Under the pieces are notes generated by a model. The model worked only from the letters and a program-made list of their open reading frames with translations. It searched no databases and was not told where the DNA came from. The translations under genes and the position numbers were made by a program. Shown here in pieces: positions 21,421 to 26,790 of a stretch of 37,994 bases of DNA. The stretch is from IMG/VR virus record IMGVR_UViG_3300013116_000028, positions 1 to 37,994 of that record; one strand, 5' to 3'. The stretch's first letter is position 1; each line of letters begins with the position of its first letter. The DNA is from a virus.

Positions 21421-21546
21421 CTACGAAGGTGAGAGTTTCCCATCATTAATACGAGACTGATTGCCATCACCACGCATCAAACGCCAAATCTCTTCAGCCT
21501 CAATCTGGGAACGCTCCCTCTCCACAATCATTTTCTTTTCAGCCAT
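21421..21546 (-). CDS. 41-aa charged protein, first gene of leftward operon
   Basis: Starts MAEKKMIVERERSQIEAEE and is mostly charged helix. GGAG lies 8 bases before the ATG. It is the first ORF after the non-coding divergence region, seven bases before the methylase-like gene. No family recognised. The upstream extension to 21705 is Cys/Pro-rich and is rejected because it runs through structured leader sequence. Confidence 0.55.
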   Translation of the reverse strand: MAEKKMIVERERSQIEAEEIWRLMRGDGNQSRINDGKLSPS

Positions 21547-21900
21547 CAAAAACTCCAAAAATTGAGTGAACCCCCAGACCTGACATGATACAGTACAAAC
21601 GCACTCGCCGCTAACACCGGTCCGATCGCCCGTCAGAGGGGCATCTGACTCCGTGTCCAGACACGACGGCCCAACACAAACCGGGGGGCACGGAGCGACC
21701 AGCACAGAGAGGCTAGGTCAAGGCAAGAGAGGCCCCAACACTCGGAGGATACCAAGGAATAAACCACACACCAAACAAACAACTGAACCAAACCCACCAA
21801 AACAACGTATAACACGTGTAAGAAAGGGCAGGGCCTCGGCACATCCCCCCTTACGAACCAAACAAACGAAGTTAACCACACGGGGGTAGGAAGACTAAAG
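21547..21900 (-). promoter_or_regulatory. Leader of the leftward operon, A/C-rich on the + strand
   Basis: No convincing gene. From about 21660 to 21890 the + strand is strongly A/C-rich and poor in T, so the leftward RNA would be G/U-rich. It contains inverted repeats GTCAGA/TCTGAC (21632-21637 with 21644-21649), CTCCGTG/CACGGAG (21649-21655 with 21689-21695) and CGTGT/ACACG (21652-21656 with 21661-21665); the last two compete. ACACGTGT near 21810 is a perfect palindrome and could be an operator. Leftward promoters must lie here, but no good -35/-10 pair stands out. Confidence 0.5.
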
Positions 21901-21910
21901 ATTTAACGAT

Positions 21911-21930
21911 GGGGGTAGATCCTGGATTTT
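21911..21930 (+). repeat. GGGGGTAG repeat plus first CCTGGATTTT box
   Basis: GGGGGTAG at 21911-21918 is a direct repeat of 21882-21889. CCTGGATTTT at 21921-21930 recurs at 22844-22853 and 24240-24249. All three boxes are on the + strand of the rightward region; the second and third share a 21-base context with only three differences (22833-22853 and 24229-24249). The boxes precede hairpins in each case. Function unknown; an RNA-level site such as an antitermination or protein-binding box is possible. Confidence 0.5.
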
Positions 21931-22136
21931 GAAGGGTTGTGTGGGTGTGGGGGGTGTGAGCTTTAGGGATTAATGAGCCTCCGGCGGCCACGGAGTGATC
22001 CGTGGACGATCAGCCGGGCGCTCCCGGCGGAGCAGAGGATTAGGCGTGTCCGACAATCCCGCATCTTTCCCAAGTGCGGGGAAAGAAGTCGGGGATTGCC
22101 TCGGGGATGCTGCGGGCCTTTTGGAGCTTACGCAAA

Positions 22137-22256
22137 CGATCACATCCGAGTTCGAACATCGACAGGGAGAACGAGACGAGTTTCTCCCGGCCCCTGTTTT
22201 GGGGGGCCAGAAACTCTAAGGGAGAATGAGAACCAGTCGATGCTCGGATGTGACCG
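22137..22256 (+). other. Four-part nested stem within the RNA candidate
   Basis: TCACATCCGAG (22140-22150) pairs with 22243-22253 over 11 bases, CATCGAC (22157-22163) with 22236-22242, GAGTTTCT (22178-22185) with 22209-22216, and GGCCCC (22189-22194) with 22203-22208. The 3' sides of the first two and of the last two are contiguous, with bulges TTCGAA and CCC on the 5' side. The internal loop carries GGGAGAACGAGA on one side and GGGAGAATGAGA on the other. The strand is not settled: one flanking A/C mismatch would be a wobble pair on the minus strand. Confidence 0.7.
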
Positions 22257-22295
22257 CCCGTTGGGTTCAAGCACTTGTAAAGTACCTCCTTGCGG

Positions 22296-22350
22296 ATCCG
22301 CTCGTGCAATCTCATTTGACTAGAGCGGATTACTCTGCGGGAGAGATTGC
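22296..22350 (+). other. Possible H-type pseudoknot (ABA'B')
   Basis: ATCCGCTC (22296-22303) is the perfect complement of GAGCGGAT (22323-22330), and GCAATCTC (22306-22313) is the perfect complement of GAGATTGC (22343-22350). The order A, B, A', B' is that of an H-type pseudoknot with two 8-bp stems. If both do not form together they are alternative folds. The unit lies inside the long-range stem 22274-22286/22409-22421 and abuts the 15-bp hairpin. Confidence 0.6.
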
Positions 22351-22394
22351 TTTTATGTTACAGAGGGGAGAACAAGAGACTCTGTAACATAAAA
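22351..22394 (+). other. Perfect 15-bp hairpin
   Basis: TTTTATGTTACAGAG (22351-22365) pairs without mismatch with 22380-22394, leaving a 14-base loop that begins GGGAGAACAAGA (22366-22377). That loop motif is the third copy of the motif in the internal loop at 22165 and 22220. No U-run follows the stem, so it is not a simple terminator. Confidence 0.75.
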
Positions 22395-22483
22395 CCCGGC
22401 GGACTGCGGGTACTTGACAAGCACTCGAATTTGCGTTTCGAGGGCGTTAGCCCGCCCAAGGGGGGAGGGAAGGAAAGGGAATT

Positions 22484-22828
22484 ATGCCTGAATTTAGAAG
22501 TGGCTTGAAGTGGGAAGAGTGGGGAGAGAGAGTTTTCCTTGAACTTGACGAGGCGGGGGAACTCCTAGAGGGCGAGTGCTCTTCTCCTAAGTACTTGCCT
22601 TGGAAAATTGACAAAGTTAACGAGTTTTGGGCGCAACACATGGGACCTTACGACGTTGCTTGGTGTTTTAAGCCTCGGATGCAGCGGTTTTACTACAGGA
22701 CTCCAATTTGGATACAGATTGGGGAGAACGAGGGCGAAGGATACAAGAAGACGGAGCTTAACTTCGAAGAGAGACTGATTTGCGGGCATAGGGCTGAGTG
22801 CAAGGGACAGGAGGTGCTGGATGTTTAA
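22484..22828 (+). CDS. 114-aa protein, first gene of the rightward operon
   Basis: Not recognised. The frame starts MPEFRSGLKWEEWGERVFLE and is Glu/Trp-rich with aromatic clusters (WCFKPRMQRFYYRTPIWIQIG). Two cysteines lie near the end (ICGHRAEC). A purine-rich site (GGAAAGGG) precedes the ATG at good spacing. It is the first gene after the structured region, and the next gene overlaps its last eight bases. A small soluble early protein; function unknown. Confidence 0.65.
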   Translation: MPEFRSGLKWEEWGERVFLELDEAGELLEGECSSPKYLPWKIDKVNEFWAQHMGPYDVAWCFKPRMQRFYYRTPIWIQIGENEGEGYKKTELNFEERLICGHRAECKGQEVLDV

Positions 22829-25628: not shown

Positions 25629-25781
25629 ATGAAAGAGTGGTGTAGCCGGTGCAAAGATCGAGGATGTGATTTTTGTAGATGGGATCTTTTCATACAAAAC
25701 TTAGGGAATTTGCTAGCTGAAAAAGCAAAAGAACCTAATCCAATGTTCATTACATATAAAGGAGAAAAGAATGTCACATAG
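25629..25781 (+). CDS. 50-aa zinc-ribbon-like protein
   Basis: The first residues, MKEWCSRCKDRGCDFCRWD, hold two CxxC pairs (C5/C8 and C13/C16) four residues apart, a compact zinc-binding knuckle. A soluble tail follows. AAAGGAG lies just ahead of the ATG. It is the first gene after the TGGTATAAT promoter and overlaps the DUF932-like gene by 11 bases. No family name; likely a small metal-binding regulator or accessory protein. Confidence 0.6.
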   Translation: MKEWCSRCKDRGCDFCRWDLFIQNLGNLLAEKAKEPNPMFITYKGEKNVT

Positions 25782-26790
25782 GATGACAAAGTTAGATGCT
25801 GAACATGCCTTATACCGTAAGGCTGCTTGGCATGGGATGGGTAACGTTGGACCTATCGATTGGGAGAAAGCTCGTGAGGCTTTTGACTGGTCTGAGGTTG
25901 AACGAAGCCCGATATTAATTGAGCATCATGGAGTAGAAGAAGTTCTTGAAGGCAGAAATGTTTTGAAGATGGTCAACTATCCATATGCTCATGCTGAAGT
26001 AAGTAATCGATATCAGGTAGTTCAGCATCGGTTCATGGCTGATGATTTAACTGGATTGCTTATCGACACTGGGCTAGTGGAGACTATTGAATCAGTTGGT
26101 ACCTATGATAACGGTGCTGTTGGTTATGTGTCTCTAAAGTTTAAGGAAGACATAGAGATTCCGGGTTGGTCAACAGTTGAATCGATGTTCAATATCGGTA
26201 ACGGACATGACAAAAATATTCCATTGATTGCTACTCAGTCTGCACGGGCTGTTGTGTGTGCCAATACTTTCAAGCTAAACATCTTGGATAAGAACGCTGT
26301 CTTCAAGTTTAAGAAGATGGGTGATCCGCAAGGCATGATGCAAGAAGCTGTTGAAGCATTGTGTGATAGCTATGAAAGACATGAGACATACAAGCAACAG
26401 ATTGAACGTATGTCTAATCAACTATTTGTTGATGAGGAATGGAACAAACTTATTGTTGATCTCATTGGTCCTGCTCCATCGTATGAGAAAGCAATAACTG
26501 ATGTGGTTACTGGCAAACAGTTATCACTACAGGGTTTCAGAAATCAACAAACTCGTTGGGCTAACACTAGACGTGCATTAAATAAACGTTTCCACGAAGA
26601 TCAAGACATAAGGGGTGTGCGTAGCACAAAGTGGGGCGCACTCATGGCTGTTCAAGCATGGGAACAGAAAGATAAAACAGTTAAGGGTGTGAACAGCAGC
26701 CTAGAACGTGACCGTAGGCATCAAGCCAACGTCATGTTCGGCAAGCTACCGATGACTGAGAAAGCTGCCAAGATTCTGGTAGCTAACTAG
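25771..26790 (+). CDS. DUF932-family phage/plasmid-like protein
   Basis: 339 aa. The N-terminal part (ALYRKAAWHGMGNVGPIDW), YQVVQHRFMADDLTGLL and the SARAVVCANTFKLNI block match the DUF932 (TIGR03299, phage/plasmid-like) family, which is widespread in actinobacterial phages and plasmids and usually sits near replication or recombination genes. Biochemical function is not established; some relatives lie beside exonuclease and annealing genes, as here. AAAGGAGAAAAG precedes the ATG. Full length for the family, with no breaks. A strong hairpin follows the stop. Confidence 0.85.
   Translation: MSHRMTKLDAEHALYRKAAWHGMGNVGPIDWEKAREAFDWSEVERSPILIEHHGVEEVLEGRNVLKMVNYPYAHAEVSNRYQVVQHRFMADDLTGLLIDTGLVETIESVGTYDNGAVGYVSLKFKEDIEIPGWSTVESMFNIGNGHDKNIPLIATQSARAVVCANTFKLNILDKNAVFKFKKMGDPQGMMQEAVEALCDSYERHETYKQQIERMSNQLFVDEEWNKLIVDLIGPAPSYEKAITDVVTGKQLSLQGFRNQQTRWANTRRALNKRFHEDQDIRGVRSTKWGALMAVQAWEQKDKTVKGVNSSLERDRRHQANVMFGKLPMTEKAAKILVAN

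Follow-up and report, generated by a model that had tools for sequence, protein, structure and literature searches.

The leader of phage T4 gene 32 holds a pseudoknot and is an example of such a fold in a phage leader. GOLLD and ROOL are long, heavily folded phage RNAs with pseudoknots and of unknown function (PMC12286853). We analysed the window, the whole 37,994-base stretch of a virus record, and detected a structured non-coding region with an interleaved pattern of two 8-mers and their complements at 22296-22350. The pattern lies in the 3' domain of the region 21975-22440, which we read, with a probability of about 0.68, as the 5' leader, long and structured, of the rightward phage gene cluster, or as an RNA derived from that leader. 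Rfam 15 had no family at gathering score in the whole window; the best sub-threshold match within the region was a microRNA model (E 0.071), and identity with a known Rfam family was ruled out, the region having sub-threshold matches only. tRNA or tmRNA identity was excluded as well, no such gene being found in the window.

The region is located between leftward genes reaching to about 21473 (DNA methyltransferase-like protein, terminase large subunit) and rightward genes starting from 22484.

21975-22440, + strand: structured non-coding region of about 460 letters, candidate leader RNA
22484-22828, + strand: 114-aa ORF, the first in the same sense downstream of the structure

The overlapping ORF 21973-22323 is broken in the near-identical contig L002 by a 1-base deletion at 22036, and this frameshift rules out a coding origin of 21975-22440. 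A same-sense start codon with a purine-rich lead was detected 24-84 nt past the region end in 11 of the 11 regions tested, with region ends set by the analyst and with short ORFs in L123 and L125. The product of the ORF 22484-22828 had no PHROG or Pfam match, and the stretch from 21470 to 22520 gave no sigma-70-like promoter. The position fits a candidate riboswitch or leader regulator, and on position only a leader function is inferred: 21975-22440 would be transcribed on the + strand, and its stable domain, together with two pseudoknots at the 5' end, could shield or present the start of the operon mRNA, potentially controlling stability or translation.

Upstream of the structured region the window is A/C-rich and G-poor at 21720-21880 and then G/T-rich at about 21930-21970, just before the structure; similar A/C-rich and G/T-rich flanks were seen by eye in L121, L123, and L054. 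A short conserved element at 21801-21898, found partly in L016, L030, L013, L011, L033, and L007, could be a promoter or operator acting on the leftward genes. The purine run AAGGGAAAGGG(AGG) recurs in hairpin loops of L121:1-460, L054:1-320, and L019:3660-3700 and resembles the purine run before the window ORF at 22484. Further downstream, 25771-26790 encodes a DUF932 protein, well conserved across IMG/VR phage contigs, in a cluster shared with a Cas4-like exonuclease and annealing proteins.

Near the end of the region opposite to the 22296-22350 pattern, two short interleaved units stand in tandem.

21988-22012, + strand: PK1, ABA'B' unit CCACG-GAG-TGATC-CGTGG-AC-GATCA
22013-22033, + strand: PK2, ABA'B' unit GCCG-GGC-GCTCC-CGGC-GGAGC, directly after PK1

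PK1 is exactly shared by L117, L121, L123/L124, L125, and L019, and altered versions were found in L054, in the second units of L121 and L125, and in the second locus of L124. Stem A of PK1 is changed on both sides in L054, L125, and L124, and its stem B in L121, L125, and L124, so that PK1/PK2 combine interleaved stems with compensated changes in both, as in an H-type pseudoknot. A further unit follows directly after PK1 in five of the seven loci compared (each against 2-7 of 2000 shuffles); L019 has an extra ABA'B' unit before PK1 and not after it, and L054 has no second unit beside PK1. The third loops of units of this type are 0-3 nt on the + sense, which is tight for RNA, and PK1/PK2 formation as RNA is therefore only a candidate. 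By comparison of the sequences, PK1/PK2 appear to be better supported pseudoknots than the combination of the two 8-bp matches at 22296-22350.

The tandem-pseudoknot scan, free of sequence constraints, covered the window and the loci L001-L130 (2,865,438 bases, both strands counted) and returned the motif places and, after merging, two others judged chance by eye (L019 with its duplicate L052; L108). Several candidates were rejected: the pattern matches L140, L141, L143, and L144 were considered chance by eye, the rest of the structure being missing; L126-L130 and nine genome matches, L131-L139, were assigned to chance and are without a complementary A stem; and 22 of 25 further loci, without the downstream hairpin arm and the CTTGAC strand, were dropped. 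One pattern scan missed L038, as the scanned stretch of this contig (L145) ends inside the pattern, so absence in that scan has little weight. Terminase large-subunit genes (phrog_38) are near the element in the window, L121, and L124. A second tandem-pseudoknot region of the L124 phage contig (L124:1080-1440, minus strand) lies between two same-direction genes, behind a terminator-like hairpin read by eye, a placement that speaks for a + sense RNA. Phages that otherwise have little in common carry the tandem module, which may therefore act on some general component of the host by binding or blocking it.

Both strands of the region fold about equally, the folding z for 21960-22460 being -7.8 (+ strand) and -8.3 (minus strand), and the helices are strand-symmetric and nearly pure Watson-Crick. 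Helix sites common to the folds of both strands held 10 G.U and 15 A.C at 1167 flanked sites in 13 regions, a near lack of G.U that differs from what RNA usually shows; known RNAs treated alike held 4 G.U and 1 A.C at 213 sites, a small sample, and G.U polarity does not fix the strand. The two-strand fold agreement, given as the share of + pairs, was 0.50-0.97 in 12 regions and 0.10-0.40 in four ROOL RNAs; L054, outside the 12-region set, goes against the trend with 0.28. Such helices would therefore fit DNA-level hairpins or an origin by template switching as well as RNA. The first of these, an inverted-repeat array of single-strand or cruciform hairpins without RNA function, such as a site of replication or packaging located between divergent gene clusters, is the strongest alternative to the leader reading and agrees with the terminase genes nearby and with the minimum of the cumulative GC skew of the window at about 22 kb. 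However, this minimum falls where the gene direction changes, and the third-position GC skew gave no clear replication-origin signal. On the + sense, purines make up 63% of 636 loop bases, a one-sided richness similar to that of 16S loops, and this, like the same-sense ORF following in every region tested, speaks against the DNA-level reading, so that we regard a purely DNA-level element as unlikely.

Related phage contigs were obtained via protein anchors. The window-type structure was detected in four lineages, and the comparative evidence for it comes from these four only: the window (with L002, L003, L040, and L119 counted as one), L038, L019 (with L052, L120, and L122), and L054, where the contig ends within the structure. 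The annotated phage collection gave no relatives, its matches being short and at chance level. The segments and helices of the middle and 3' domains are as follows.

22296-22303: A = ATCCGCTC, first 8-mer of the pattern
22306-22313: B = GCAATCTC, second 8-mer
22323-22330: A' = GAGCGGAT, third 8-mer
22343-22350: B' = GAGATTGC, fourth 8-mer
22130-22136/22430-22436, + strand: helix PA, closing the middle and 3' domains; 2 double changes and 0 breaks in L038
22141-22150/22243-22252, + strand: helix PB; 3 double changes in L038 and 1 in L054, with one A.C break in L054
22157-22163/22236-22242, + strand: helix PC; 3 double changes in L038 and 3 in L054
22274-22287/22408-22421, + strand: helix P1; same sequence in L038, counterpart with a rewritten sequence in L019
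22292-22304/22397-22407, + strand: helix P2, 5' strand including A; core pairing probability 0.97-0.98
22306-22313/22343-22350, + strand: helix P3, which is B:B'; probability 0.97
22296-22303/22323-22330, + strand: the A:A' match; nested-ensemble probability 0.01-0.025
22351-22365/22380-22394, + strand: hairpin P4, stem TTTTATGTTACAGAG; kept in L038 and L019
22325-22341, + strand: interrupted copy of the P2 3' strand in the P3 loop; all 12 bases present, split by 5 inserted ones

The minimum-energy folds of the window, L038, and L019 have a common plan: P1, P2, and then P3 and P4 side by side. In the window fold A pairs with 22399-22403 in the P2 3' strand (probability about 0.97), and P2 keeps its position with other sequences in L038 (TTCACC/GGTGAA) and L019 (CCTTCTT/GAGAGGG). 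The predicted P1, P2, P3/P4 junction plan is thus shown to be common to three lineages, with A modelled as the 5' strand of P2. P3 is identical in L038 and has four double changes among its eight pairs in L019, paired changes of the kind that had been named beforehand as support if present in both stems. In L054 GCAATCTC is retained, but the arm before P4, in the B' position, is a different sequence pairing elsewhere, so B is not in a P3 helix there; for P4 itself, L054 has the 5' arm only, as the contig ends at this point. B:B' is a conserved helix in L038 and L019, yet L054 counts against its universality.

In the comparisons of PA, PB, PC, P3, and P4 the compensated changes are all double and none is single. 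This, the strand symmetry of the helices, and the copy of the P2 3' strand in the P3 loop are in line with template switching, a mutation process that forms hairpins, as PMC8794818 describes. The hairpins of that description resemble ours in their perfect stems and multi-base compensatory changes, but they represent a mutation process and not an element. If template switching during replication had made the hairpins and kept repairing them, the fold, A' included, would be a by-product in part or as a whole. However, PK1, P4, and the P1 3' strand are retained in phages whose sequences differ elsewhere, and the region is located upstream of a start codon; this retention and position suggest selection, and the by-product explanation is somewhat less probable again than the DNA-level one. 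Within the leader RNA reading, template switching is a plausible way for the helices to change.

The preliminary description had taken the pattern for an H-type pseudoknot or a switch inside a long-range stem. The two perfect 8-bp matches in the order A, B, A', B' are exact at their coordinates, they span 22296-22350, and the unit is enclosed by the long-range helices P1 and PA. Interleaved perfect 8-bp pairs within 56 bases occur at one place in the whole window, and at least one such pattern appeared in 6 of 300 dinucleotide-shuffled windows. With the B:B' stem taken as given, 22276-22305 matched the P3 loop over 8 bases in 70 of the 5000 dinucleotide shuffles of this loop and in 30 of the 5000 mononucleotide ones. 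The pattern is thus unlikely by chance, as had been claimed, at the level of about 1-2%, but not astronomically so.

The A segment and the P3 loop of the window form a duplex of -23.5 kcal/mol, and 1 of 500 shuffles was as stable. No pairing beyond chance was detected between the corresponding segments in L038 (-10.4 kcal/mol, 419 of 500 shuffles as stable), L019 (-6.7 kcal/mol, 302 of 500), or L054 (-3.3 kcal/mol, 460 of 500, and -5.8 kcal/mol, 227 of 500, with the other possible P3 arm). Where L038 aligns with A and A', three of the eight positions pair, and the L038 segment in the place of A pairs with the P2 3' strand. The second group of regions described below has, in five sequences, a hairpin at the P3 position with a 3-nt loop, which therefore leaves no room for A'. 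Independent drift of the arms, named beforehand as the outcome against the pseudoknot, is what the relatives display for A:A', and the H-type pseudoknot of A:A' with B:B' is unsupported for this reason: B:B' is kept in L038 and L019, and A:A' in none of L038, L019, and L054. A:A' as a conserved pseudoknot is ruled out by the missing A-to-loop pairing in these three, and of the initial reading the conserved, covarying B:B' and the enclosing long-range stem stand, with A:A' found in one of the four lineages only.

The presence of A' in the window is explained by the copy in the P3 loop: GCGGA-TTACT-CTGCGGG equals the P2 3' strand GCGGACTGCGGG (22399-22410) with five inserted bases. Among 5000 shuffled loops 9 align equally well, and the copy is absent in L038 and L019. 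A:A' is thereby shown to be specific to the window lineage, whose P3 loop gained the copy, and A is therefore able to pair with either strand; A' would be at most a strand-exchange alternative to P2. A true pseudoknot or a two-state switch in this lineage only, in which A would leave P2 and pair with A' in a helix lengthened to 15 bp and bearing a 4-base bulge, P3 being kept (pseudoknot) or lost (nested), is quite improbable. The stability of the A-segment/P3-loop duplex is in its favour, as is the nested fold that uses A:A', which lies only 3.3 kcal/mol above the minimum; against it, taking P2 out of the minimum fold costs 15.5 kcal/mol, and the arrangement is absent in L038, L019, and L054. 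Pseudoknots carry an energy penalty of about 9 kcal/mol or more, and by a hand estimate with this general value the pseudoknotted form would be at least roughly 9 kcal/mol above the minimum. Within a large leader-like structured region, the feature 22296-22350 consists of one helix together with a single strand of a second, and a more general lesson is that a perfect ABA'B' arrangement in a single sequence can arise by helix-strand duplication.

Across the regions, the ends are conserved and the middle is variable. A second group at the same gene position (L013/L011/L043, L033/L055, L027/L044, L023, and L008) has a body of its own, but its 3' end, which carries a GTTAC hairpin and a CTTGAC strand, is comparable. 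Its consensus fold has at least one both-sides change in 36 of 147 pairs, with a summed covariation term of +2.76 kcal/mol, slightly unfavourable, and with the 5' half of L023 poorly aligned. A third type of structured region was observed at the same gene position in L117 and L046. L117 combines the 5' module of the window with a different body common to L046, and these sequences therefore suggest module exchange between structured regions.

For the leader RNA reading as a whole, we tentatively propose an undescribed class, which we hold to be somewhat less than evenly probable: long structured phage leader RNAs with a near-perfect hairpin array between 5' tandem H-type pseudoknots and a conserved 3' junction, in which helices are replaced whole by template switching and the 5' module is common to phages otherwise unrelated in sequence. 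If the region is RNA, it represents a family of large, structured phage leaders that Rfam lacks at the thresholds used, and the fast helix turnover with pairing kept would make it a test bed of whether RNA structure is maintained by template switching.

A relationship to the large ornate phage RNAs GOLLD or ROOL, which the similar size, phage origin, and unknown function given in PMC12286853, together with the conserved ends and variable middle, could recommend, is very improbable in view of a window without a tRNA gene and of covariance models that had no match at E 10 in the record for either GOLLD (RF02032) or ROOL (RF03087), the ROOL model having matched no control genome and found 4 of 299 other genomes. 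Compared with both families, the region differs in its strand-symmetric helices and in being followed by a start codon at no more than 84 nt, and the four ROOL sequences are far less strand-symmetric than the regions analysed here. The T4 gene 32 leader is like the region in placing a pseudoknot in a phage leader; the candidate leader of the window, about 460 nt long, differs from it in carrying two candidate pseudoknots, one directly after the other and a long way upstream.
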